A DNA stretch of 33,166 nt from positions 1-33,166 of the forward strand of contig JAEKNW010000309.1 in the NCBI GenBank assembly GCA_016838885.1. The letters run 5' to 3'. The stretch comes from Candidatus Cloacimonadota bacterium (GTDB lineage Bacteria > Cloacimonadota > Cloacimonadia > Cloacimonadales > JAFGVF01). The translations under genes and the position numbers were made by a program. Shown here in pieces: positions 6,566-28,260 of this stretch. The notes under the pieces are model-generated. The model made no database searches and was not told where the DNA came from. It saw nothing but the letters and a program-made list of their open reading frames with translations. Position 1 is the first letter of the stretch. Each line of letters starts with the position of its first letter.

Positions 6566-9496
6566 ATGAAGAAAAAGACAATAATCATCGAATCAGTTAT
6601 ACTGATTATCTCAATTACTCTTTTGGTGTTTTTCTTAGGGTTGCCCCAAATGTTAGATCTTAATAAAAGAGCTAACAAACAGAAAAATATTTCTCAACTC
6701 ACTGAGTTGAGTATTTCAACAAACAAATTTTTAGATAAGTATTTATACAGCATGACTGCTGACCTTTCCAGTATTAAAGAAAAAATGGAATATACCCAGA
6801 GACTAAACGTTCCAGGAGATAGTAAGTATCAATACTTAATTTATGGTGGAATTAAGGATGCTGATTTAAGATATGTTGTATCCTACGACTTATTTGATTT
6901 AATGAATCAAAGTAAAAAGAATGATAGGACATTTATTAATTCAGTAAATGCTTATGTAATTTCAGCAAAAGAGAGAATGTTGAATAGTCCTGATTCAGAA
7001 AAATACATAAACTATATCGGATATTTAGATATTTTAACTTCCAAACTCAATGATGAAAGCTATTTCAGAAGAGCTCAATACACAAAAGATATAGTTAATC
7101 CGAAATTCAACACTAATAACGTCTCAAATTTTGGTTCCTTTGCCCAAGGTCTAGTAGGTTCAAGTTTATTCAAAGATAATAAACTTCCAGTTGCTATAAT
7201 CATCTACCTATCATACATTAATCAAGTAGATTCAGCTAATGCTACTGAAGAAACATTTGATACTTTTTATAATACCTTCACCAAGCTTACAAGTTTTAGT
7301 GGATATTATTTATCAGTGGCAGACAACACTATTGCAGATGGAATGAAACCAAACGATGTTAAAGAGATGTTTAATGATGAATTTAGAAAATTCTACTTTG
7401 ATTCTATTCAATATCCTGACAAGCTAAACAAGGGAATTGTAGCAATCGGTACCAACGCTGTAGTAGATCCAACTAACAGGCTTACAAACAACTTCCTTAA
7501 TGATTTAGTAGCTAGCTCCTATCAGAAGGAAGTTAATCAAGTAATAGATGATTTATTAAGCCAATATCCAGGAGATCATGAAGGTTTTGCTAGAGCTCTC
7601 AGAATTAAAATTAATGAGTATAAAGACAACGATATTAACAGACAAATAATTGATATCTATGAATCTGTGTTCAACTATATGCAATATCAAGAATATCTTC
7701 ACAAATCGATTAATTCTTTAAAAGAAGTTACTGTAAATTCTGCAGTGGAAAGCAAGTTTAAAGAATTCTTCCACAGCTATATCTTAAAATATGATAAAGC
7801 CTATATTCTCAATGATTTAGCCAATAGAGTAAATAGTATAGTTGTCGACCCAAATTCCAAACAGTCGAGTCTGATGAGAAATGTTAGTAATAAATTTGAG
7901 AGAGACTTACTTAACGATTTTAAAAAAGAGATAAAATCTCAACCTACTTTCTTATCTAATTACTATGCTTCTAAAGATTATTCAGATTTAATAAAAACCT
8001 CGAAACTACAATTTATTGAAGAGAAGACATCTCTATTTGTTGCTGAAGTTAAATCTGAAAGACTAACTATCGATTATCTCAAAAACAATATTGCTAAAAA
8101 CAAAATTATTGAAGATTCAGAATTTCAGCAGGAATTACAAATTAAAAAAACTCAATGGGAAAATGATTATTCATATATCCAATACTTAGCTTCTTTGGAT
8201 AATCCTTCAGCTAACAAGGGCAGTATTTCGCAAGCTCTTCTTGCTGATTCAATTAATTTCAAAAAAGTCAATAAAAATCAAATTGATAGGTTAACTTCAG
8301 CAGTAAATGATACAAAAGAAAAATATTTCACAGGAAGTTATGATAGAAATAGAAAATTTGATACTTACGCTGAATTCTGTGCTACAACTATAGCCTCAAC
8401 AGTAAGTGAAGATAGAATGGCAGAATTTATGCAATACCAAGAAGCTATTCTTAGAATTGTTTCTGATTTTATAGCTAATAATGACTATCCTGAATTTGCA
8501 GAAGAGTTAGGTCAAAACGTAAGAAACGAGTTAAACGACTTATATAAAGAGCAAACTCTTGCTTATGCTAGTCTATCCCCAGAGTATCTAGAAAAGATTA
8601 ATACTCTTAACTCAAACCTAACTAATTATGATAATTATACTAAGTTTGCTACCACAAACAGAATAGCAAGAAATAAGCTTCTTTCTAAAGACATTGTGGA
8701 TGTTTTAAAAGATGTTTCAATTAATCCTGAAGGGCTTATTCATCATTACAATTATTATCTCTTTTATGCTAAAGATATTGTTAATAAAGATAAATATTAT
8801 GCGTCATTTGGTAACACTCAGTTAGAAATTGCCAAAAAACGCTATATTGATGATAAAATTTCCGGAGAAGCCACTGACTGGACACAATTAGAGAAAGAGA
8901 TTGCGGCTATAGTTAAGAATGATAATCAAGAAACAAGAGCCCAATTCACTAATACTATGAAGTTAGCTGTTAAAAATTATAAAGCATTTAGAAATGACAA
9001 TTATAAATATGAAAATGCTTTCAATTTTAACGGTTTGATTTCTGATTTAGCAAGAGTTGAAAATAATATCAAACTCTATCGTGGTCCCATTGATTACCCA
9101 TTCTACGATAAAGATGAATACTACTTAATCTATGGAAGATTCATTGAAGATGGTAATAAAAAACTTGGTATCTCTGTAGTTACTTACACTGATATTCATA
9201 ATTTTCCTCAAGCCAATGCAGTTGTTGTCAGAAATATTGCTTCTTCCAATGAAGATACAAAGGCGATAACAGTTAATCTCCAAGGAAAACTTGATAACTT
9301 AATTTCCCAATATCAACAAGAGATTGAAAAGTTAAAGGTCGATAGAGAAGAGTTCAGCAATATTAAAGTTATTCATAATAATGACCCTAATTTTAAAATT
9401 ACAACTCAATCAGCCCAAGCTAAGAAAATTATAAGAGATAGATTTGCTATAGCTCTCGAAAAAATGCTTGAAGAATTTGTTAGAGAAATATACTAA
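6566..9496 (+). CDS. Large membrane-anchored protein of unknown function
   Basis: I do not recognise this protein of 976 residues. An N-terminal transmembrane helix (about 6-27) follows the positive start MKKK, so the remaining roughly 950 residues should lie outside the cytoplasm, anchored rather than released. The rest looks mainly helical and is rich in Lys, Asn, Asp and Tyr. It has one Cys (in EFCATTIAS) and no visible nucleotide-binding, metal or protease motif. A short beta-rich part occurs near 875-920 (YYLIYGRFIEDGNKKLGISVVTYTD), and the C-terminus (about 925-976) is charged helix. The start ATG has GGAG upstream. It is transcribed alone between two terminators. Scaffold, surface or envelope roles are all possible and none is shown. 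Confidence 0.8.
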   Translation: MKKKTIIIESVILIISITLLVFFLGLPQMLDLNKRANKQKNISQLTELSISTNKFLDKYLYSMTADLSSIKEKMEYTQRLNVPGDSKYQYLIYGGIKDADLRYVVSYDLFDLMNQSKKNDRTFINSVNAYVISAKERMLNSPDSEKYINYIGYLDILTSKLNDESYFRRAQYTKDIVNPKFNTNNVSNFGSFAQGLVGSSLFKDNKLPVAIIIYLSYINQVDSANATEETFDTFYNTFTKLTSFSGYYLSVADNTIADGMKPNDVKEMFNDEFRKFYFDSIQYPDKLNKGIVAIGTNAVVDPTNRLTNNFLNDLVASSYQKEVNQVIDDLLSQYPGDHEGFARALRIKINEYKDNDINRQIIDIYESVFNYMQYQEYLHKSINSLKEVTVNSAVESKFKEFFHSYILKYDKAYILNDLANRVNSIVVDPNSKQSSLMRNVSNKFERDLLNDFKKEIKSQPTFLSNYYASKDYSDLIKTSKLQFIEEKTSLFVAEVKSERLTIDYLKNNIAKNKIIEDSEFQQELQIKKTQWENDYSYIQYLASLDNPSANKGSISQALLADSINFKKVNKNQIDRLTSAVNDTKEKYFTGSYDRNRKFDTYAEFCATTIASTVSEDRMAEFMQYQEAILRIVSDFIANNDYPEFAEELGQNVRNELNDLYKEQTLAYASLSPEYLEKINTLNSNLTNYDNYTKFATTNRIARNKLLSKDIVDVLKDVSINPEGLIHHYNYYLFYAKDIVNKDKYYASFGNTQLEIAKKRYIDDKISGEATDWTQLEKEIAAIVKNDNQETRAQFTNTMKLAVKNYKAFRNDNYKYENAFNFNGLISDLARVENNIKLYRGPIDYPFYDKDEYYLIYGRFIEDGNKKLGISVVTYTDIHNFPQANAVVVRNIASSNEDTKAITVNLQGKLDNLISQYQQEIEKLKVDREEFSNIKVIHNNDPNFKITTQSAQAKKIIRDRFAIALEKMLEEFVREIY

Positions 9497-10944: not shown

Positions 10945-11008
10945 GAAAAGAATCTAGCACTCTTCATCAAAGTTCTACTGCATCATTCGGGTTTAACCCG
11001 AATGATGC
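10945..11008. repeat. Dispersed palindromic repeat, copy R3 (right arm plus inverted end)
   Basis: GAAAAGAATCTAGCACTCTTC and CTACTGCATCATTCGGGTT match the right arm of R1 almost base for base. The terminal block is then repeated immediately in inverse orientation (AACCCGAATGATGC, 10995-11008) after a single T. This makes a perfect 14-bp inverted repeat. It looks like two repeat ends joined head to head, or an internally deleted copy. Confidence 0.75.
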
Positions 11009-11017
11009 TGATTTTTT
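10980..11017 (+). terminator. folC terminator built from repeat R3
   Basis: GCATCATTCGGGTT (10980-10993) and AACCCGAATGATGC (10995-11008) form a perfect 14-bp stem, and TGATTTTTTT follows on the plus strand. It ends folC transcription 51 bases after the stop. The same bases encode, on the minus strand, the last residues and stop codon of the converging secreted-protein gene. Confidence 0.75.
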
Positions 11018-12980
11018 TAATTACTTCTTTATTATCAGATTTAAGTTTAACAAAGTATATTCCATTAGGTGTATTCTTAGGTAATTTTACTTGGTGTTCA
11101 GGATTTAGGACTTTCTCTTTATGAATTAATTGACCTTTTAGATTATATATTTTAACTTGTGTTTCTCCTCTTATATCTCCTACTTGGAAACTACCATTTC
11201 TAACAGGATTAGGAAATATTACAGGTTCATGAACTACTTGACTAAACTCCTCATTACTAGTCGGTGATGAGGAGATAACAATTCTATCAATAACTAACAT
11301 GAGGGTTTGAATTCCGCATGATTCTAACCAAATATTTGTTATTCTATCTTGGCTATTTTCGCAAGTATGAGAAAAGTTAAGATGGGTCATCTCACCCGGA
11401 ATTTCAATATAATTACCTTCTTGAAAATAAATTATATCCTCTTGATTATTATTATAAACCACTCCACATTTAACTCTTTCCATTCCCCAAGAAGTGTTCA
11501 AGCTTTTTAGGTAAATATCAATCCCTACTTGATCGGCTTGAAAAGAAGGTGATATGAGAATATCTGAAGTCGGAGGGGTAATACTGGAAAAACTAACTAA
11601 GCATTTATCTCCAGTAATATTTAGTTCTAAGGGAGGGGTAACTGCCCCAGGTTCGAATACCACAAAACCTGCTTCTGACCCCGCATTAGGATAAAAATAA
11701 TTACTAAGGATATAAGTAGCACTTCCATCATTATCGATGTTTATCCAGTCTCCTAAATCACTAGTAAAGGACTCATAATTTTCAAATTCCTCATCGATGA
11801 TTATATTTTCAACTGCTCCAATTTCAATATTGTATATCTCTGTTTCCAGATAACTTCCATCAATATAATAAAACTTTACTTGGTAATCATAACTTTCTCC
11901 AACACAGACCTGATTGTCTAGGAATGAATTTTCATATTGATTAACTATTTCCTCATTGTTTCTATAAACAACATAAGGATATTGGTTATCATAAATTGAG
12001 TTCCATTCTAAAGAGACAGAATAAGTGTCATTTTCTAGAGAAGCAAAATATAAATCATGTTCATCATCGGATGTTTCAAAACTAAATTCATCACTATCAT
12101 AAATATCAACACCATTATTATAATGTACTTGCCACTCATAAGGTGTGTTTGGCGCAAAAGGCAGTTGCGGATAAATCTCATACACGTAATCATGGAGATG
12201 CTGATAATTGTCTAAAATATCAATAGTGAATACATTTTCTGGGCAGGCGAAACTGATACTTGTGTTGTTTGGTTGTAGAACATTGATCTGTAGTCCTGTA
12301 CTTGTCTCAATATCAATAGCATTATCAGTAGGATAGATTGCTTGAGGATAATTTTGATCTATTGCTATATCAAAAATAGTATTAGGTAACCAGTTCCGGA
12401 TAAAGATTGGTGTTACTAAATTTCCAGGATCTAAAGGATTTTCCAGATCAACAAAACACATTGAAGTGTTACCTGAAGTAGAGAAGGCCAGAAAATTATC
12501 AGAATTCAAGCCACTATTAGTGTGATTTTCCATGAAAAAAACAATTAGATTTCCATTTCCTGAATATGAATAAGCTTGAGTCAAATCGATAGTCATCCAA
12601 CCTGATCCCGTACTATTTGATGCTTGAAAATTATCAGCAGTAAGATTCCCAGAATAGCATAGCTCTAATTGGTTGAGAGCAATGAAATCTTCTTCATTCT
12701 GATAAAAGTTTGTCGGAGCTTCACCCATCATAAGAGTTACATCATTGATAATAGTCTCAGGATTAGTAGTGGTAAATTGATACTGAAAAGAAAGCTGTGT
12801 TATAGTCCCATTATATGGAAAATAGTTGCTATCATAGATTAATTGAGAGCCACTATGGTTATAAAATGGGTCACAAGGAAGATGCTGATTATGCTCAGTA
12901 CCATTACCTACATTCAGTTGATAACAATTAACTATACTTATCATAACTAAAAACCATGCTGTTAAAATTGATATTTTCAT
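10983..12980 (-). CDS. Secreted beta-rich protein with Por/T9SS-type sorting tail
   Basis: Predicted extracellular or surface protein (665 residues). Residues 1-20 form a signal peptide. Residues about 22-205 form a beta-sandwich opening with NGTEHNQHLPCDPFYNHSGS, a module I associate with Cloacimonadota/Bacteroidota surface proteins. Ig/FN3-like parts follow (EWQVHYNNGVDIYDSDEFSF; VSLEWNSI...YPYVVYRNNEEIV). Near 388-575 lies a carbohydrate-binding-like sandwich. The C-terminal 75 residues are a sorting domain: FPNPVRNGSFQV, VKIYNLKGQLI, NGIYFVKLKSDN, KKISII. Such tails direct type IX secretion in Bacteroidota; whether that system exists here cannot be seen. No enzyme motif is evident. The last few codons (RVKPE, stop) are made by repeat R3. 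GGAG precedes the start. Confidence 0.8.
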   Translation of the reverse strand: MKISILTAWFLVMISIVNCYQLNVGNGTEHNQHLPCDPFYNHSGSQLIYDSNYFPYNGTITQLSFQYQFTTTNPETIINDVTLMMGEAPTNFYQNEEDFIALNQLELCYSGNLTADNFQASNSTGSGWMTIDLTQAYSYSGNGNLIVFFMENHTNSGLNSDNFLAFSTSGNTSMCFVDLENPLDPGNLVTPIFIRNWLPNTIFDIAIDQNYPQAIYPTDNAIDIETSTGLQINVLQPNNTSISFACPENVFTIDILDNYQHLHDYVYEIYPQLPFAPNTPYEWQVHYNNGVDIYDSDEFSFETSDDEHDLYFASLENDTYSVSLEWNSIYDNQYPYVVYRNNEEIVNQYENSFLDNQVCVGESYDYQVKFYYIDGSYLETEIYNIEIGAVENIIIDEEFENYESFTSDLGDWINIDNDGSATYILSNYFYPNAGSEAGFVVFEPGAVTPPLELNITGDKCLVSFSSITPPTSDILISPSFQADQVGIDIYLKSLNTSWGMERVKCGVVYNNNQEDIIYFQEGNYIEIPGEMTHLNFSHTCENSQDRITNIWLESCGIQTLMLVIDRIVISSSPTSNEEFSQVVHEPVIFPNPVRNGSFQVGDIRGETQVKIYNLKGQLIHKEKVLNPEHQVKLPKNTPNGIYFVKLKSDNKEVIKKISIIRVKPE

Positions 12981-17131: not shown

Positions 17132-17187
17132 AACCCAAATAATGCAGTAGAGCTTTAGAGAAGAGTGCTACTGCACCATTTCGGGTT
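17132..17187. repeat. Dispersed palindromic repeat, copy R5 (short form)
   Basis: The left arm AACCCAAATAATGCAGTAGA and the right arm GTGCTACTGCACCATTTCGGGTT are imperfect reverse complements joined by GCTTTAGAGAAGA. The long AT loop is absent, as in R2. The right end touches the stop codon of the minus-strand hybrid sensor gene, so the hairpin lies immediately after that gene in its 3' untranslated region. Confidence 0.8.
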
Positions 17188-20100
17188 TAAACCTTACTAT
17201 TCTTGTATTCGTTAGCGATTTCGATTAACAAAGCAATATTTGCTATGTTAAGCACATCAGGCAATTCATCATTAATTAAATCATAAACGCCCATGTAATC
17301 ACTATTTTGGTAATTATCTTTGATAAAATAGTTGTTGGTAATTATGTAAGGTTGAGAGATATTCTTCATTTCTCGAACAGCTTTAAGAGTCTGAAGATCA
17401 TTGATGCTACTTACTGATAAATCTATGAAAATAACATCATAAGTGTTTTTATCAATTAGCTCTTTCATATCTTGTTCAGTAGTACAAATCTCGATTTTTT
17501 GATTTAGAATCTCCAAAATCTTATATAAAACAAAATGACATATATTATTGTAATTTACAATTAATGTTCTTAGTGGATAGAGATTTTTAATTCTATTCCG
17601 AGTAAATTCACAAACATCATTTGGTAGAATAAATTTATCAATATTGTTCTCACTATCGATAACAGAGAGGTCATCATTAACTTCAAACTCAGTAAATTTT
17701 TTGATTAAGAAGGTAATTTTATTACAATTCTGAGATTCATCTCCAAACTCAATCCTTCCCCCTAGAAGATCTAGTAAGTTGTTTATGATCACACTACTAA
17801 ATCTAAAATCACAAATATTTTCTAGTTTATGCAAAACCTCACGCTTTTCAGCCTTGACTTCTGTGTATCTTCCAAGACTTTCTGATGATAAGTTACTTGC
17901 CTGAATGGTGAATTTTAAGAATTTATCATCTTCGTCATAAATATCAATGATTATTGGATTTAAAGCCTTTTCCTTGGCTAACTTAAGTATTAAAATTTCT
18001 AATAACTTTGTTAGCTTATCAACTGCTAAAAATTCGATTTCCTTGGCTTTGTTACCAATATGGTAGAAGATTTTAGCAACATTTAAAGAATTTATCAATA
18101 CTTGAGAAGTATATGTAACAACTTCTGATAATTGTGCTTTTTGGATTACTAAGTCATTGGCTTGATCACCCGTCTGATAATTAGTAATTTCATGAACAAT
18201 AAATAACAATTGACCTGTTAAATCTCTTAAAATATCCAAATACTCATCAATGGTTGAAGAATCTTCAGTATGCTTGATTAAATCAATTATCCCGTAAAGT
18301 GAGTTTATTGGATTAATCAAATCTTGGCCAAAGCTTTTGTAAAAACTCAACTTAGCCTCAGTAAAAGCTTTCTGCTCTTCTAAAAGGATTGTCATTTTAT
18401 TCTGTACTGCATTTTTGGCAGTTATATCTGTTATTGAAGAGATAATTTCCTTAGTCTCTGGAACCAAAACTACATTTAGCATAACATCTAAAACATAACC
18501 TTTTTTGTTAACTAATTTAGTTTCATAATTATCTGTAGAATCAATTTTGCTTTGATATCTTAATTCTCGATTATTAGCCATCCGGCTGACATGAGAAGAA
18601 TCAACAAATGTCTGCCAATCCATCTTGTTTACGACTTCTTCTTTGCTATAACCACTCAATTCCTCAAATTTCTTATTCACCATTGTTACAATACCATTCT
18701 CAGCAACAGTAACTAGTGCTATACCACTGTTTAGGTAAACAGATCGATATCTATTTTCTTCTTTTTCTAACTGCTCAAATAGATGCTGCTTTTCTGTTAC
18801 ATTCATCCCTGTCAAAAGATAGTATAATCTATCTTTGGCACGAATTGATGTAACTACACCCTCTACAATGATCTTCTTACCACTATTAGTTATTAAATTG
18901 AACTGTCTTCGTAAATCTTCTTTAGTGGATTTTTCATTATCAACATAAGTCTTAATCAGGACTAAATCACCTGCTTCTTCAAAAAAGTCCCAGAGAAATT
19001 GCTCCCTGTGTTGAATATTAACTAACTCTAAATTAGTAATAGCATAATTATTTGCTCTACTGATTACACCATTTTTATCAAAGACTATCATCAGAGATTC
19101 TTCATGATCTTGTACTGTACGAATGAAGTTTTTCTCATCTTCTAATTCATTAGTTCTTTCTTGAACAATCTCTTCCAAGTTATCAGTCAGGTTTATTAAA
19201 GATTCATTTGATTTTATCAGTTCGTTCTTTAGCTTATTCTTTCTCATCAATGTTATTATTAACCATAAGATTATCGAAGCAAGGAATAGAACAATTAGAG
19301 AAAATCTAATTATCAGAACTTTGTTCTTCGACCAATAGGATTCTTCATAGTTTATAATCACTGAATCTTCAGGTAATTGATTAAGCTTTATCCCCCACTT
19401 ATCCAAAGCTTTTTTATCAAAGTAGTAGGTATTTGGACTAACTTCTATTATTGGTAATTTTTCTGCAGGGGCTCCTTCCAAGATCTCTATTGCCAACTTT
19501 GCTGCACTCTGGCCTTGCAAAGTACCACTTGAAAGATATCCTCCAACCGCACCATAGCCTAAGCTAAAATCTATCGAAACATAAACAGGTACATTTGCAG
19601 ACTCAGTAACCAATAGAATACTTTCATCATATTCTAAGAATTGGCCCAGATTATCTTTAAAAAATATACTATATAAAACTACTGTGTTTTGATTTAAATT
19701 TCTTAATCTTTCCTTCAAATCCCCAACAGAAATATCTTCTAATATTTCTATCTCAATATCTTCTTTAAAGTCTCTAATATCAGCCTTTATGTTAATTCTA
19801 TTCTGCTCACCTGTAGGGGTCAGCTCATTCAAAACAATAATTTTTTCTACATTCTTATGAATCTTCTTGATGAGTTGGAAATTCTCTAAAGAGACGATTT
19901 TCTCGCTTACCCCAGTAACATTCTTCATATTACCTAATTGGGAGGGATGAAAATAGTTTACACCACAAAAAACAACCGGAGCACCTTTAAAAACTGTTTC
20001 ATGAAGATCTTTTACTATATCAAAAGCATTATTATCTGATGTGATTATTACATCAAAATTACTATCCTTATATTTATATTCCAACATCATTTTAAGATTA

Positions 20101-20336
20101 TTTCTGAAAGATTCAGAATTAAACCTTTTAGTATCTAGATATTCAGTCTTAATTCTAACATTACTATTATACTCTTTTAGTGTGGATTTTATTGCAGAAT
20201 CTATATTGTCTGACCAGAGAAAACCAGAATGATAGGACTGAATAACTAATACCTGAGGTATCTTATAGCTTATCTCTGTGGCATTTACGATGATAATTGC
20301 CATAATAAAAAAAGTAATTAATAATATTTTCTTCAT
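17187..20336 (-). CDS. Membrane hybrid sensor with degenerate kinase and receiver domains
   Basis: Signal peptide (1-19), then a periplasmic ABC_sub_bind-like sensor (about 26-320: VLVIQSYHSGF, DVIITSDNNAFD, FCGVNYFHP). A transmembrane helix spans 341-363, coiled coil about 366-402, and two PAS domains about 403-515 and 526-640. A HisKA-like helix pair (661-720) reads FGQDLINPINSLYGI where active kinases read SHEIRTPxNAIIGF, so the phosphoacceptor His is Gln671. The ATPase-like domain (about 765-880) keeps the LLGGRIEF strand but lacks the N-box Asn and the G-boxes. A receiver-like domain (about 922-1035) has Asn928-Tyr929 where the acidic pair belongs; Asp972 is kept, but the switch Lys is Asn. 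I infer a signalling protein without phosphotransfer. GAGG precedes the start; the stop codon abuts R5. Confidence 0.85.
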   Translation of the reverse strand: MKKILLITFFIMAIIIVNATEISYKIPQVLVIQSYHSGFLWSDNIDSAIKSTLKEYNSNVRIKTEYLDTKRFNSESFRNNLKMMLEYKYKDSNFDVIITSDNNAFDIVKDLHETVFKGAPVVFCGVNYFHPSQLGNMKNVTGVSEKIVSLENFQLIKKIHKNVEKIIVLNELTPTGEQNRINIKADIRDFKEDIEIEILEDISVGDLKERLRNLNQNTVVLYSIFFKDNLGQFLEYDESILLVTESANVPVYVSIDFSLGYGAVGGYLSSGTLQGQSAAKLAIEILEGAPAEKLPIIEVSPNTYYFDKKALDKWGIKLNQLPEDSVIINYEESYWSKNKVLIIRFSLIVLFLASIILWLIITLMRKNKLKNELIKSNESLINLTDNLEEIVQERTNELEDEKNFIRTVQDHEESLMIVFDKNGVISRANNYAITNLELVNIQHREQFLWDFFEEAGDLVLIKTYVDNEKSTKEDLRRQFNLITNSGKKIIVEGVVTSIRAKDRLYYLLTGMNVTEKQHLFEQLEKEENRYRSVYLNSGIALVTVAENGIVTMVNKKFEELSGYSKEEVVNKMDWQTFVDSSHVSRMANNRELRYQSKIDSTDNYETKLVNKKGYVLDVMLNVVLVPETKEIISSITDITAKNAVQNKMTILLEEQKAFTEAKLSFYKSFGQDLINPINSLYGIIDLIKHTEDSSTIDEYLDILRDLTGQLLFIVHEITNYQTGDQANDLVIQKAQLSEVVTYTSQVLINSLNVAKIFYHIGNKAKEIEFLAVDKLTKLLEILILKLAKEKALNPIIIDIYDEDDKFLKFTIQASNLSSESLGRYTEVKAEKREVLHKLENICDFRFSSVIINNLLDLLGGRIEFGDESQNCNKITFLIKKFTEFEVNDDLSVIDSENNIDKFILPNDVCEFTRNRIKNLYPLRTLIVNYNNICHFVLYKILEILNQKIEICTTEQDMKELIDKNTYDVIFIDLSVSSINDLQTLKAVREMKNISQPYIITNNYFIKDNYQNSDYMGVYDLINDELPDVLNIANIALLIEIANEYKNSKV

Positions 20337-20382
20337 AATAACCTCTATTTTAAATATATTAAATAAAATAACTAAAAAAAAG

Positions 20383-20717: not shown

Positions 20718-21524
20718 ATGAATAAATCAATAAAACAAGTACATTTTGAAGAAAAAATACTCAACTTGTTAGAGTGTAAAGCTTTTGATATTACCAGCAG
20801 TATTTTTGAAGATGAAGAGATTCAAGCACTTCAGGATTATTGTAACAGTGTATCTATAAAGAGATTAGGCTTCAATGATCATGGTCCCGTTCACATGCGG
20901 AAAGCAACTCTTAATGCCATTGTTATGTTTAAACTTTTATCAAACGGAGGAATTAAGTTTAATCTAGAAAAAGAGGGGTTAGGAAATAAAGAGGATTCCT
21001 TGATTGGGATTATTTTAGCATCATTATTTCACGATTTTGGGATGTCAATTGCTAGGGAGAATCACGAGTTAATGAGCGTAGAGTTAGCAATGCCATACAT
21101 CAGAAAATATATTGATCAAGTATATGACCAACATAAAATTAAGACAAAAATGGCAGTACAATCAATTGCGGTTGAAGGTATTTTTGGCCACATGGGTACT
21201 CAGACTATTCACTCACTTGAGGCAGGTTTAGTTTTAATAGCAGATGGAGCTGATATGGAGCACGGAAGAGCTAGAATTCCTACTCTTTTAGCCTCTACTC
21301 CCAAACCTGGAGATATTCATAGAACATCAGCCAATGCTATCAAAAAAGTAAGATTTGAAAAAGGTGCCACTAAACCAATAGAAATTAAAGTAACAATGAC
21401 AGCTTCAGTTGGTTTTTTCCAAATAGAGGAAGTTTTATTTCCAAAAATATTAAAGAGCCCGGTAAAGAAATATATCGAATTATATGCTGGTGTAGAAGGA
21501 AGAGAATATCTTAAATATCTTTAG
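20718..21524 (+). CDS. HD-domain metal-dependent phosphohydrolase family protein
   Basis: This cytoplasmic protein of 268 residues has the HD-superfamily pattern: H55 and H59 in NDHGPVHMRKA, the H105-D106 doublet in ASLFHDFGMSI, and a later Asp in LIADGADMEHG (D176/D179). These would bind one or two metal ions for phosphomonoester or phosphodiester hydrolysis. The helix after the HD pair lacks the usual GK, and there is no GYP motif, so a cyclic-di-GMP HD-GYP phosphodiesterase is unlikely. The C-terminal 70 residues form a beta-rich domain of unknown role. AGGAG precedes the start. The phospholipase D gene begins 8 bases after the stop, making a likely two-gene operon. The substrate is unknown. 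Confidence 0.8.
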   Translation: MNKSIKQVHFEEKILNLLECKAFDITSSIFEDEEIQALQDYCNSVSIKRLGFNDHGPVHMRKATLNAIVMFKLLSNGGIKFNLEKEGLGNKEDSLIGIILASLFHDFGMSIARENHELMSVELAMPYIRKYIDQVYDQHKIKTKMAVQSIAVEGIFGHMGTQTIHSLEAGLVLIADGADMEHGRARIPTLLASTPKPGDIHRTSANAIKKVRFEKGATKPIEIKVTMTASVGFFQIEEVLFPKILKSPVKKYIELYAGVEGREYLKYL

Positions 21525-23399: not shown

Positions 23400-26300
23400 C
23401 TATTTGATAACACAAATCTTCTTTGTGTGTGATTTAAGGCTATCCTGATATTTCACAAAATAGACTCCTGAACTTACTCTATTACCTCCATTATTAGTTA
23501 AGTTCCAAGTTATAACACTATTATCAGTTTTACAATCTTCGATATTAAAATCTTTAACTTTTTGTCCCTTCAGATTATAAATTGCTAAAGAAAAATCTTT
23601 ATTTCTCGTGTTACTTACTATAATCTCTGCTTTTTCCTTAATAGGATTAGGTGAAATGACAAACTGCGATGCAAGTTGAACATCATGATTTTCATTTTCA
23701 GTAATAGTCATAATTGATAGTTCAGCAGCATAAGTTCCTGCTAAATCAGTATTAGCGATAGTCATGAAATTATTAGTTAGCCTATAAGTATCAGTCCCCA
23801 AATGCAAGTCAAGAGGGTAGTTATATGGATTATTACTCTCTTTGATTCTCACTTGAACAGGTTGAGTTAAAGTATTGGTAAAAGCTATCTCCCAATAATA
23901 TGTATCAGCTTGAGTTAGTTCAATTAATTTGGTGTGCATTTTCGGGTAATAATTGCTTAGTGGAGCTTGTGAGACTATATAGGCCTCAGTAATCCCTGAA
24001 GTTGGCCTCACCGGAGCTTTCATTAAATCATATTCAACATCCATTATCGGGGTCAAGCCTGATTGAAGTCCAACTCTTAGCTCATCCTTAGCACCTGAAC
24101 TTGTAATGAATTCTAGGGTAAAATAGATTTCAGGGATGGAAAGAGAAAAGTCTTCACTCAGATTAACTGCTTCAAATCTGACATACATTTCTCCAGTCGT
24201 AAGCTGATTTAGGAATACACTCTCAAAAGCCTTGAGGGTATCTACAGGAGTATAACCACCATCTCTTATACCAATAATTTGAGGCATAATCAATTCACTC
24301 TCGGCTACTCTCTTAAAACTTCTGACTGAATTATTGCGATAAAAAAGAATATTTTCTATCTTATAATCTACGGGATGAGGGTTGTAAATCAGATTCCAAC
24401 CACGATTTATTTCATATTGAGTATCTGCTAAGAATGGACTGCCATTATAATCTAGTTGGCAATCTTCTAAAATATTTAGAAAATATCCTTTATCATTATC
24501 TAATAGCTCAACATTAAGAAACTCTTGTTCATTCAAACTAAATGCTTCAATATTTCCAGCTATGGTGTTAAGATAGAAACTCGAAGTAAATGGATAAGAT
24601 ATTAACTTATTGTTACTACTGGAGTCTATATTGATTGCTTCAATTTCGGAGACAAAGATGAATCTATCAAAAGATTTGAAGTCAATAATCTGGTCATCTA
24701 TCGATGTAACCTTCACAACTAAATTCATCATGTCCGAATCTTGACTGATGTTATTAGTAAAAGTATAGGATGTTTGATCTGCAGGTAAATTTTCTACAAT
24801 TGGAATCACATCGAATTCATTCATAAAATTAAGATCAATAGATTGAACTAATTCAGGATAATCTATATCCCATTCCATTTCAATATCATCCCCTTGATAA
24901 AGTAGAGAGTTGGCATAATCAGGGAATGTTACCTTAGCCTGCAAATTTCCCCAAACTAACTTAGCATTAAAGGTTCCGGCTCCCGGGAAATTTAATTGAA
25001 TAGGAGATGAATTTAAAGAATATAACTCATTATCATAGATGAGGTAAAACCTTTCTGAATTACGCGAATTATCCAAGGAGAATGTTAAACTTGTGGGGGG
25101 ATTGTAGATATTCAAATCTAAATATCTAACTTCTTCTGTTTCATCAAATTGAGGTATGATATTTCGCACCAGCTCTTCATTATTATATTCGATACAAAGA
25201 TGGTCATAATATCCATCTCTCAGCTGGTCGTAAGATTCATCATAACCATCAGTGGCAAAATAACTCTTCCCAAAAGTAATAGTTTCATTCCAAGAATTCC
25301 CTACAGAATTTAGCTGGATGTAATTAGCAAGAGCTCCGTTAATAATTTGAGATATCTGATTACTCTGTCCAAAGGATGTAACAACATTAACACGATAAGA
25401 ATAATACTCGTCTATCTCTAAATTCGTGTCAGTATATGAGAAAGGGTCATAGTATGAGTTTGTGATTACTAATTCAGGATTATCAATATAACTGGCATGA
25501 AGTTCAAATTCACCTGCATTAGTCTTTCTGTAAATTTCAAATCCTGAACAATTTTGTTGCTGAATCTGGGTCCATTCAATCTCTATGGAATTATTATCTG
25601 CATAAATACTAAAGTCGGAAGTTGTGATCGGAAGTGTAGTATATACAAGTTCCTCAGAGACAGGTGAGATATTCCCATTATAATCAAGGGTTCGCATTGC
25701 TATGTAATAGGTTTGATTAAGCTGAAGATTGTTTAAAGAAGCGCTGTTATTTATCGGAAAAGCTAAAGCACTATATAAATCTCTATCTATAACACTATAA
25801 TCACCTTGTGATATTGGTGTTAATGAGTATAATATTTCATAAGAATAAAAATCATAGCATGGTGCAGGGTCCCAAGCAATTGAATTTCCGGAACTAACAT
25901 AATTTCGTCTTAAGTTTGATGGAGCTTCAGGAATCTCTTGATCGTCAAATTCAACCCAAGCCTCAACTGCTTCTGCTAAAGCAGCAATAAAAGGTTGGTA
26001 ATAACTATCCATTTTAGTATATTTCTCAGAGATATTCCAATTGTATGTATAAGAATTAAATCCATAAAATGTCTTAAAAGACTCTTCACTTTGAAGGTAA
26101 CAATTTGGTAACTCATCAAATTCAACATGAAAGAAAGGACTAAAAACATCCCAATCGCTGAAGTTACTTGTTGAATAAATATCATGAAATGAATTCGGAT
26201 AACCCGGCAAATCAACATCATTACTTATGATTAAAGTATCATGATAAGTTGTTGGATAATATAAATTATGGACACTGTAATAATCCTCTACAGTTACCTC

Positions 26301-27230
26301 TTCATTGATACCTATACTTCCCTGAGGGATTACCAGATAATCAGTATTCTGAATCACATCCTGTCTAAGTGGTGAAAAATCTCTGATAGGCAAACCTGCC
26401 GGTCTTCTATACTGCCCGGGAGAAATCTGACAACTAGCCATGCCCGGATGAGTATCCCAGTCATAAGAATGCAATTGGACAGACAGCTCACGTCTTTCAT
26501 AATCTTCTCGAATCTTATCAGCTGCCTTTGCATAAAAATAATTAAAAGGATGATCGCAATTTCTGCTTGGATCACTTAAAGACTTATTATTAGAATAATT
26601 ACCATACTCACTCCACATAACTTCCCTACCACTGCCATTGATCATCAGATATTGAGCATCTAAGCTCATGAAACTCTTCACAGATAAATAGGGAGTAACA
26701 AAATCATCATTAGGATGAGGGGCTGTAACAATGACAGGATTAGGATTCGTTGTTCGATAAACAAAAATACCCCAGCCAAAATCAAACGACCCTATTTCAT
26801 CATCATAAGTAACCCCTGTTCCATTATCATCCATATAAGAAAGATTGAGATTTTCACGTAACATATAGTATATGTCAGATCCATCCGTGAATTTGACTAC
26901 CGAATAAGGAATATTATTCTGGGAAAATAAGATATGAGCAGCATTATAGTTTCCCTCAAAAAAAAGATCAACTCCCTCTTCCCATATATCAGTCTGGGCC
27001 TCAGTTGGTAAGGTGAATTGCCCAAAACCCTCAGTTTGCCTATCATAAGGTGCATACATATTATAGCCTTCTTGAGCAATACCTTCTACAATATGAGATT
27101 CCCACTTGCTATATGCACAATTTGGCTCATTGAAAAAAAAGAAGTTGAATAGGTCCGCATTTTCTTCAATAATTGCCCAGATTTGAACATTGATTGATAT
27201 AAGTACAAGAACAAAGATTAATCTTTTCAT
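23400..27230 (-). CDS. Very large secreted multidomain protein: hydrolase-like domain, FN3 modules, sorting tail
   Basis: Predicted exported protein of 1276 residues. An upstream ATG at 27242 would add MGET, but the Shine-Dalgarno GGGAGAG lies between the two ATGs, so I chose 27230. Signal peptide MKRLIFVLVLISINVQIWA. The first 430 residues resemble a metal-dependent amidohydrolase or peptidase: TAPHPNDDFVTPYLSVKSF, SDPSRNCDHPF, SVQLHSYDWDTH and FFHVEFDE offer His, Asp and Glu ligands; I suspect an N-formylglutamate amidohydrolase/M14-like fold but cannot prove it. Two or more FN3 domains follow (from PEAPSNLRRN, and TTSDFSIYADNNSIEIEWTQI), then beta-rich modules, then a sorting tail (FVISPNPIKEKAEI, LAIYNLKGQKV, SSGVYFVKYQD, KKICVIK). 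Translated alone. A weak CTTGC/GCAAG stem follows the stop without a T run. Confidence 0.78.
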   Translation of the reverse strand: MKRLIFVLVLISINVQIWAIIEENADLFNFFFFNEPNCAYSKWESHIVEGIAQEGYNMYAPYDRQTEGFGQFTLPTEAQTDIWEEGVDLFFEGNYNAAHILFSQNNIPYSVVKFTDGSDIYYMLRENLNLSYMDDNGTGVTYDDEIGSFDFGWGIFVYRTTNPNPVIVTAPHPNDDFVTPYLSVKSFMSLDAQYLMINGSGREVMWSEYGNYSNNKSLSDPSRNCDHPFNYFYAKAADKIREDYERRELSVQLHSYDWDTHPGMASCQISPGQYRRPAGLPIRDFSPLRQDVIQNTDYLVIPQGSIGINEEVTVEDYYSVHNLYYPTTYHDTLIISNDVDLPGYPNSFHDIYSTSNFSDWDVFSPFFHVEFDELPNCYLQSEESFKTFYGFNSYTYNWNISEKYTKMDSYYQPFIAALAEAVEAWVEFDDQEIPEAPSNLRRNYVSSGNSIAWDPAPCYDFYSYEILYSLTPISQGDYSVIDRDLYSALAFPINNSASLNNLQLNQTYYIAMRTLDYNGNISPVSEELVYTTLPITTSDFSIYADNNSIEIEWTQIQQQNCSGFEIYRKTNAGEFELHASYIDNPELVITNSYYDPFSYTDTNLEIDEYYSYRVNVVTSFGQSNQISQIINGALANYIQLNSVGNSWNETITFGKSYFATDGYDESYDQLRDGYYDHLCIEYNNEELVRNIIPQFDETEEVRYLDLNIYNPPTSLTFSLDNSRNSERFYLIYDNELYSLNSSPIQLNFPGAGTFNAKLVWGNLQAKVTFPDYANSLLYQGDDIEMEWDIDYPELVQSIDLNFMNEFDVIPIVENLPADQTSYTFTNNISQDSDMMNLVVKVTSIDDQIIDFKSFDRFIFVSEIEAINIDSSSNNKLISYPFTSSFYLNTIAGNIEAFSLNEQEFLNVELLDNDKGYFLNILEDCQLDYNGSPFLADTQYEINRGWNLIYNPHPVDYKIENILFYRNNSVRSFKRVAESELIMPQIIGIRDGGYTPVDTLKAFESVFLNQLTTGEMYVRFEAVNLSEDFSLSIPEIYFTLEFITSSGAKDELRVGLQSGLTPIMDVEYDLMKAPVRPTSGITEAYIVSQAPLSNYYPKMHTKLIELTQADTYYWEIAFTNTLTQPVQVRIKESNNPYNYPLDLHLGTDTYRLTNNFMTIANTDLAGTYAAELSIMTITENENHDVQLASQFVISPNPIKEKAEIIVSNTRNKDFSLAIYNLKGQKVKDFNIEDCKTDNSVITWNLTNNGGNRVSSGVYFVKYQDSLKSHTKKICVIK

Positions 27231-27400
27231 AGTCTCTCCCATTTCTATTATGGTTAAATTGCTTTTTGTTTAATGATTTGATCTAATTTGCATAACTTAA
27301 TGTATCTGACTTCATTCAGACATCATTATTTCACTAATAACAACTATTAATATAAAGAGATAAATCGTCAAGTTTTATGTTTGTTTTGTGAAAATTCTGT

Positions 27401-27545
27401 CTCTCTCAAGTATAGTGGGAAATAATTCTAATTATGTATCAAGAGCTACATAAATCTTCCAAGCTCCAGAGGAGCTGGAAGAATGAACAGTGTTTCGGAT
27501 AAGGATAACCTTGAAGTTATTTGCTACCCACTTTACTTGAGAGAG
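27401..27545. repeat. Long palindromic element, third sequence family
   Basis: The left arm CTCTCTCAAGTATAGTGGG (27401-27419) pairs with CCCACTTTACTTGAGAGA near 27528-27545 with one mismatch. Similarity continues inward (AAATAATT against AAATAACTT on the reverse strand). The centre is a strong hairpin: TTCCAAGCTCC (27457-27467), AGA, GGAGCTGGAA (27471-27480), with a single bulge. The whole of about 145 bases could fold into a branched structure. No coding frame is evident. Confidence 0.7.
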
Positions 27546-27550
27546 AACCA

Positions 27551-27635
27551 TTTATATATATTCAAAAAAATTATATAGCTTACTTTTGAAGAAGAATATA
27601 GTGCTATTCACAAAAGTCAACTGCATTATTTGGGC
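27551..27635. repeat. Dispersed palindromic repeat, copy R7 (loop plus right arm)
   Basis: TTTATATATATTC and AATTATATAGCTTACTTTTG match the reverse complement of the loop and inner arm of R1. GAAGAATATAGTGCTATTCAC and CTGCATTATTTGGG are the standard right arm. It begins only about 5 bases after the palindrome at 27401-27545, so two unrelated palindromic elements are stacked side by side. Confidence 0.72.
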
Positions 27636-27805
27636 CTGTATTTATTTAAATATTTTCTTACTTGTTTAAAATTGAATTTTATTTTTATACCTCGTAAAAT
27701 ATTTCTTAATTCCCTATTCACCCATTAATCAATATATTAAGCATAGTCTGAAGACTCATCAAATCAAGAGTTTTCATAATTTACAGAAAATAATTAAAAT
27801 TTGTA

Positions 27806-27860
27806 TTGACAGTATATTACCCTTTTATAAATTCAAATCAAATAGACTTCTTAAAGAAGT
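27806..27860 (+). promoter_or_regulatory. Promoter region and leader hairpin of the RRM gene
   Basis: TTGACA (27806-27811) is a consensus -35 box. TATAAA (27826-27831) follows, but only 14 bases later, so the match is imperfect. In the leader, ACTTCTT (27846-27852) and AAGAAGT (27854-27860) form a small hairpin ending 17 bases before the start codon, just upstream of the GAGGA site. Confidence 0.35.
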
Positions 27861-27877
27861 TAGAATGAGAGGAATTA

Positions 27878-28171
27878 ATGAATATTTACGTTGGAAACTT
27901 GTCATATACTATGACACAAGAAGATTTGAGAGAATTGTTTGCGGAATTTGGAGAAGTAACTTCAGTTAAAATAATTGAAGACAGAGAAACTGGTCGTCCT
28001 AAAGGTTTTGGTTTTGTTGAAATGGCAGATAATGCTGCTGGACAAAACGCGATTGATAGCTTAAATGAAAAAGAAATTCAAGGTAGAGGCATCAAAGTTA
28101 ATGAAGCTCGTCCTAGAGAAGATCGTCCTAGAGATGACAGACCAAGACGCAGACCAACAAACAGATATTAA
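27878..28171 (+). CDS. RRM-domain RNA-binding protein
   Basis: This small cytoplasmic RNA-binding protein (97 residues) has a single RNA recognition motif. RNP2 is IYVGNL at residues 3-8 and RNP1 is KGFGFVEM at about 43-50, with both aromatic positions kept. EDLRELFAEFGEV forms the first helix. The C-terminal tail (about 78-97) is rich in Arg, Asp and Pro with a three-fold RPRxDR-like repeat. Bacterial members of this family, well known in cyanobacteria and common in other phyla, are often cold-induced or act on mRNA; its targets here are unknown. GAGG precedes the ATG. The gene is monocistronic with its own hairpin terminator. Confidence 0.92.
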   Translation: MNIYVGNLSYTMTQEDLRELFAEFGEVTSVKIIEDRETGRPKGFGFVEMADNAAGQNAIDSLNEKEIQGRGIKVNEARPREDRPRDDRPRRRPTNRY

Positions 28172-28183
28172 TTTAGCTTTTTG

Positions 28184-28209
28184 ACCATCTCGCTCTGAAG
28201 TGAGATTTT
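28184..28209 (+). terminator. Terminator of the RRM gene
   Basis: ATCTCGCT and AGTGAGAT pair over 8 bases (one G-T) around a CTGA loop, then TTTTTG follows. It lies about 15 bases after the stop. Confidence 0.65.
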
Positions 28210-28229
28210 TGATAAAGAATTAATTTAAC

Positions 28230-28260
28230 AAAAAAAGGACTTAACAGTCCTTTTTTTTTG
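28230..28260. terminator. Bidirectional terminator between the RRM gene and manA
   Basis: A run of A, then GGACT TAAC AGTCC, then a run of nine T: the sequence terminates on either strand. It closes the minus-strand manA operon directly after the manA stop and backs up the RRM terminator. Confidence 0.85.

Follow-up and report, generated by a model that had tools for sequence, protein, structure and literature searches.

A Cloacimonadota pseudo-hybrid sensor kinase with an intact reading frame and nearly all catalytic residues of its kinase and receiver lost

The gene at positions 17187-20336 of the analyzed window (the whole 33,166-nt stretch of DNA, from a Cloacimonadota genome of 3.34 Mb in 350 contigs) encodes a pseudo-hybrid kinase derived from an active one, and it probably still yields a folded protein. 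ORF analysis gave an uninterrupted frame of 1049 amino acids; the original prediction of an intact frame over 1049 codons was right, except that the gene lies on the minus strand. In the Pfam search, the ABC_sub_bind family (PF04392) matched residues 69-319 with 45.9 bits against a cut-off of 25.9, and PAS matched residues 529-640 above its cut-off. HisKA (residues 671-723, 14.4 bits, cut-off 26.9) and Response_reg (residues 925-1000, 22 bits, cut-off 30.2) were detected only below threshold, and HATPase_c gave no match. Two stretches of the protein matched the NCBIfam sensory_box model; the first PAS-like domain is assigned from this together with the sequence and the alignment to G002. The binding domain carries all invariant columns; it also matches a TrpX-like NCBIfam model, far under the cut-off of that equivalog, and found no solved structure by sequence. 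With a binding domain above the curated cut-off, followed by a transmembrane helix and a cytoplasmic output, the protein is an ABC_sub_bind sensor. The complete layout is given in Table 1.

Table 1. Features of the pseudo-hybrid sensor kinase gene, in window coordinates
Feature	Residues	Position	Strand	Basis
Pseudo-hybrid sensor kinase, entire gene	1-1049	17187..20336	-	open frame, 1049 aa
Signal-peptide-like N terminus	1-20	20277..20336	-	sequence; aligns with G002 N terminus
Periplasmic ABC_sub_bind-like binding domain	24-335	19332..20267	-	PF04392; 40% identity to G002
Transmembrane helix	~340-363	19248..19319	-	hydrophobic stretch; TM/coil 46% identical to G002
PAS-like domain 1	401-518	18783..19136	-	sequence; G002 alignment, 26% identity
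PAS domain 2	519-645	18402..18782	-	PF13426/PF00989; 40% identity to G002
Degenerate DHp/HisKA	646-735	18132..18401	-	sub-cut-off HisKA; modeled helical hairpin; core 24/30
Degenerate CA/ATPase, without N, G1, G2 residues	736-884	17685..18131	-	HATPase_c unmatched; core 31/35
Linker at the place of the G002 first receiver (missing here)	885-918	17583..17684	-	alignment
Pseudo-receiver, matching the second G002 receiver	919-1049	17190..17582	-	sub-cut-off Response_reg; alignment
Gln, codon CAA, at the phosphoacceptor His position	671	18324..18326	-	residue check, alignment
Asn-Tyr replacing the acidic pair	928-929	17550..17555	-	residue check, alignment
Asp, phospho-site Asp still present	972	17421..17423	-	residue check, alignment
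Ribosome-site-like AGAGG upstream of ATG		20342..20346	-	sequence

Residue columns were defined against 20 intact kinase modules taken from the fetched loci. Seven of the 34 conserved polar, Gly or Pro columns are retained in the kinase part (K662, P676, N678, G682, D773, K788 and G860). Around the H-box, His is replaced by Gln671, Glu by Asp672, Arg by Ile674 and Thr by Asn675; the two N-box Asn residues have become I781 and K785, the G1 residues D/G/G have become A813/N815/S817, and the G2 glycines fall in an alignment gap. The receiver retains one of seven functional columns, D972, with Asp replaced by Y929, Pro by S976, Gly by D980, the switch Lys by D1023 and Pro by E1024. The proposed replacement of the phosphoacceptor His by Gln671, the loss of the N-box Asn and the G1 and G2 glycines, and the exchange of the acidic pair for Asn928-Tyr929 next to a kept Asp972 were all borne out by residue numbers or alignment. 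An Asn had been named at the switch position; no Lys is present there whether D1023 or the adjacent N1022 is taken, but the aligned residue is D1023, N1022 lying one column off. The statement that every phosphotransfer residue is lacking went too far, as Asp972 and the seven kinase columns are kept, although almost all are indeed lost.

Each of the three hallmarks of an active hybrid histidine kinase fails in this protein: the H-box has no His, the N, G1 and G2 boxes for ATP binding are replaced or deleted, and of the receiver's acidic pair, phospho-Asp and switch Lys D972 alone is kept. Its C-terminal domain is a pseudo-receiver, a recognizable receiver without the residues required for phosphotransfer, and the kinase part, collinear with an intact kinase and stripped of catalytic residues, agrees by homology with pseudo-histidine kinases of the DivL/RocA type. 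Judged from the families, the protein cannot autophosphorylate, because the His, N, G1 and G2 residues are missing, and its receiver should not be phosphorylated efficiently, because the acidic pair and the Lys are missing. No His stands at the phosphoacceptor position, and the possibility that a conserved His sits elsewhere in the helix did not hold, since H689 and H715 fall in other alignment columns. It is highly improbable that the protein still serves an active phosphorelay, with the phosphoacceptor shifted to H715 or with D972 phosphorylated by another kinase: H715 does lie within an HEIxN string and D972 is kept, but the column of H715 holds, in intact kinases, the Asn of DHp helix 2, and H715 was rejected as an alternative phosphoacceptor, no N-box, G1 or G2 residue is left for ATP binding, and the receiver has neither acidic pair nor switch Lys. 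Elsewhere in the same genome, two sub-threshold receiver matches (G000:C220:23781-24050 and G000:C84:6193-6516) may be further pseudo-receivers.

The best full-length relative was found in the genome G002 of a sister genus, a Cloacimonadota MAG, where its sequence lies on two contigs (L037 reaches query residue 322, and L038 takes up the alignment at query residue 344); from their position and from a copy in the genome G001 that spans the junction, we infer that the two contigs carry one gene. The orthologue (loci L037/L097 and L038) is an intact ABC_sub_bind-PAS-PAS-HisKA-HATPase-REC-REC hybrid kinase with the motifs SFLANMSHEIRTPL, NLVGNAIKF, DSGIG and GGTGLGL. It is collinear with the 1049-aa protein from the signal peptide to the end, so a swapped-in foreign output domain was rejected. 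The binding domain and the second PAS domain are each 40% identical between the two proteins, whereas the G002 kinase has all H, N, G1 and G2 residues and two complete receivers, and the 1049-aa protein has none of these residues and a single degenerate receiver, its first receiver and G2 box being deleted relative to G002. In a tree of 57 binding domains the two are sisters with support of 95/84, values that are incompletely settled, and both terminal branches are long.

A second orthologue (L046:1496-3068, G001:C105), which belongs to a different species of the sister genus, is broken up. It lacks most of the binding domain, the second PAS domain, the ATPase domain, the first receiver and half of the second, carries a frameshift, and has His replaced by Tyr within an otherwise perfect H-box; the 3' neighbor is common to the G001 and G002 copies. 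The deletion junctions in G001 lie in similar short sequences, e.g., EEVLD at both places, which suits either a true loss of DNA between short repeats or misassembly of a fragmented MAG. Because the G002 orthologue is intact and the G001 copy is broken with a His-to-Tyr change, kinase activity was ancestral and then lost, and it appears to have been lost in two of the three family lineages compared. Among 125 genomes of the phylum, no other species had a relative of the degenerate module. Intact orthologues beside a simply decaying copy had been named as grounds against a selected role. Half of this applies: in G002 the H, N, G and DD residues are all intact. The G001 orthologue is wrecked, and the gene is therefore being lost elsewhere in the family.

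Identity to G002 is unevenly spread along the protein, at 40% in the binding domain, 46% in the TM/coil region, 26% in the first and 40% in the second PAS domain, and 22%, 22% and 28% in the DHp, CA and receiver parts, respectively. Between G002 and other intact kinases, DHp (46-56%) and CA (38-43%) are the most conserved parts; at the level of sequence, the 1049-aa protein inverts this pattern, the input half being best kept. This distribution would suit a protein in which the input half alone works, as a membrane-anchored binding protein that captures a ligand or hands it on to a transporter or another receptor, while the cytoplasmic half is simply carried along and tolerated, and the binding domain does resemble substrate-binding proteins of ABC transporters. 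We regard such a role as quite unlikely, as the second PAS domain is conserved to the same degree as the binding domain, the C-terminal core pattern is retained, and neither a permease nor an ATPase gene of such a transporter is present in the 33,166-nt window.

Neutral decay was simulated from the G002 sequence, a single modern sequence standing in for the ancestor, with base frequencies taken from the intergenic DNA of the window. Reaching the observed 24% identity required ~0.7 substitutions per site, which yields ~19 stops in 369 codons; overall, decay to the observed divergence is expected to leave ~16-20 stops, against 0 observed; even at 0.2 substitutions per site the simulation gives 8.5. 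The hydrophobic core is kept at 55/65 positions in the kinase (85%) and 30/33 in the receiver (91%), where neutral decay at matching divergence predicts ~67% and ~66% (P <= ~0.0015 for kinase and receiver alike over the range of 0.6-0.8 substitutions per site), with an alignment that slightly favors matching hydrophobic columns. Part of the divergence, however, accumulated in the G002 lineage or, under selection, before kinase activity was lost; this lowers the neutral share and weakens the core test: at 0.3 substitutions per site P is 0.12 for the kinase and 0.06 for the receiver, while the expectation remains at 11.6 stops. Retention of polar columns is close to the neutral level. These patterns are most simply read as selection that acts on folding of the product but not on its catalysis. 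Stop count and core retention thus agree with the proposal that kinase and receiver have both degenerated in an intact frame, beyond plain neutral decay.

The same data bear on a different history, in which this lineage has given up the pathway and what is left is a relic gene eroding under weakened selection without any new function, its open frame reflecting merely the purging of stops or of misfolded membrane products. The wrecked G001 orthologue with its H-to-Y change, which shows that the gene can be dispensed with, the deletion of the first receiver and the G2 box, the near-neutral loss of polar columns, and the singleton status of the degenerate module in the phylum all fit this history. 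The lack of any stop or frameshift where ~16-20 stops are expected and the retention of the hydrophobic core well above neutral speak against it, and we consider it unlikely, if a serious contender.

AlphaFold2 modeling with 11 kinase relatives in the alignment reached a mean pLDDT of 64, with up to 85 in the receiver part, and the model shows a DHp hairpin, a CA-like alpha-beta layer and a receiver-like fold; its PDB matches include ShkA, ZraS, GacS, RetS, CpxA and DivL. Folded without relatives, residues 640-1049 gave a poor model with a pLDDT of 33. The prediction, of medium confidence only when relatives are in the alignment, speaks for a retained fold but falls short of proof because of the low value without them.

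Upstream of the gene, the good promoter that had been claimed was not upheld: promoter-like matches occur at chance level (24 found vs 22.4 +/- 4.8 in shuffled sequence), and TTGAAA-17-TATTAT at 20411-20383, a 10/12 match, lies in a region without an excess of such matches. The ribosome-site-like AGAGG does exist, but it is ordinary beside the sites of neighboring genes. Divergent from the sensor gene, and adjoining a cardiolipin synthase gene, window 20718-21524 encodes a 268-aa protein in which motifs like those of HD phosphohydrolases (HDFG) can be made out by eye, with no Pfam or NCBIfam match. Elsewhere in the window, two large secreted proteins (10983-12980 and 23400-27242) end in T9SS-type Por_Secre_tail C termini and are unmatched in Pfam over most of their length, and the 976-aa product of 6566-9496 has a membrane segment at its N terminus and is unmatched in both Pfam and NCBIfam. 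The ~1 kb at 27243-28260 holds no ORF of at least 100 aa and no Rfam match; the Rfam search of the entire window also gave none.

The binding-domain-TM unit itself is widespread, with at least 542 relatives in many phyla in one scan of a genome collection. Besides the 1049-aa protein, 62 fetched proteins with this unit have a detectable kinase module; the second N-box Asn is present in all 62 and the G1 Asp in 61. Among these kinase-module proteins, the 1049-aa protein alone has none of the checked residues. Across many phyla the unit (L067-L146) is coupled to many different outputs, and about a third of the fetched proteins have no HisKA-type kinase module by profile. Two 859-aa proteins (L128:5917-8493 and L079:3256-5832), also without a kinase module, apparently carry tandem binding domains.

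We consider it somewhat probable that the 1049-aa protein is a ligand-sensing pseudo-hybrid histidine kinase that works through protein contacts without phosphotransfer. Such a membrane receptor would combine a periplasmic binding domain, one TM helix, two PAS-type domains, a dead DHp-CA module and a dead receiver, and would descend from an active hybrid kinase with two receivers, such as the sister genus still has. The periplasmic domain would bind a ligand, dimerization may be retained through the coil and the DHp bundle, and a conformational change could be relayed to a partner by contact, in a mode like that of DivL, RetS or RocA; a scaffold or allosteric-relay role, as first suggested, would be of this kind. 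The likeliest partner would be a response regulator or one of the cell's own ~25 intact HisKA kinases, examples of which lie at G000:C141, C147 and C336; the genome also encodes >30 receivers. Within the genome, the dead module is closest to the hybrid kinase at G000:C141, a paralogue with 20% identity, and no putative partner gene adjoins 17187-20336. More tentatively, and with somewhat less than an even chance in our view, this transmembrane ligand sensor may have converted a whole hybrid phosphorelay module, kinase and receiver alike, into a selected structural relay that works without phosphate, over no more than the divergence between two genera of a family in which the active ancestral type persists. 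The intact G002 orthologue permits a before/after comparison of a phosphorelay sensor going phosphate-free. Annotation pipelines may label such proteins 'hybrid sensor histidine kinase'.

Our literature search found nothing specific on this exact architecture in Cloacimonadota or on ABC_sub_bind sensor kinases, and comparison is with better known systems. DivL of Caulobacter is a pseudo-histidine kinase that functions without kinase activity (PMC4211667); it resembles the 1049-aa protein in combining PAS domains with a DHp-CA module whose His is replaced, and it was matched in the fold search. In DivL, however, the N, G1, F and G2 boxes are all present and the His alone is replaced (PMC4211667), whereas the 1049-aa protein has lost all boxes and has an added periplasmic binding domain and a pseudo-receiver. 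Unlike in DivL, the best studied of the bacterial pseudo-histidine kinases, nearly all catalytic residues of kinase and receiver are gone here, with core and input kept. RetS of Pseudomonas, a hybrid sensor kinase, modulates GacS by direct contact (PMC12148439); RetS is among the best fold matches of our model, but its partner is known and the transmitter of the 1049-aa protein is far more degenerate. RocA of Streptococcus is a membrane pseudokinase modulating the intact kinase CovS (PMC7028121); that account records for it no binding-protein domain, PAS pair or receiver, in contrast to the 1049-aa protein. The pseudokinase ChrS offers a further precedent for contact with another two-component protein (PMC9491836). 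Pseudo-receivers make up several percent of bacterial receivers and share with the present domain a receiver-like fold without phosphotransfer residues; most characterized ones occur in response regulators (PMC12632262), whereas here the pseudo-receiver forms the C-terminal end of a hybrid kinase whose kinase is also dead.
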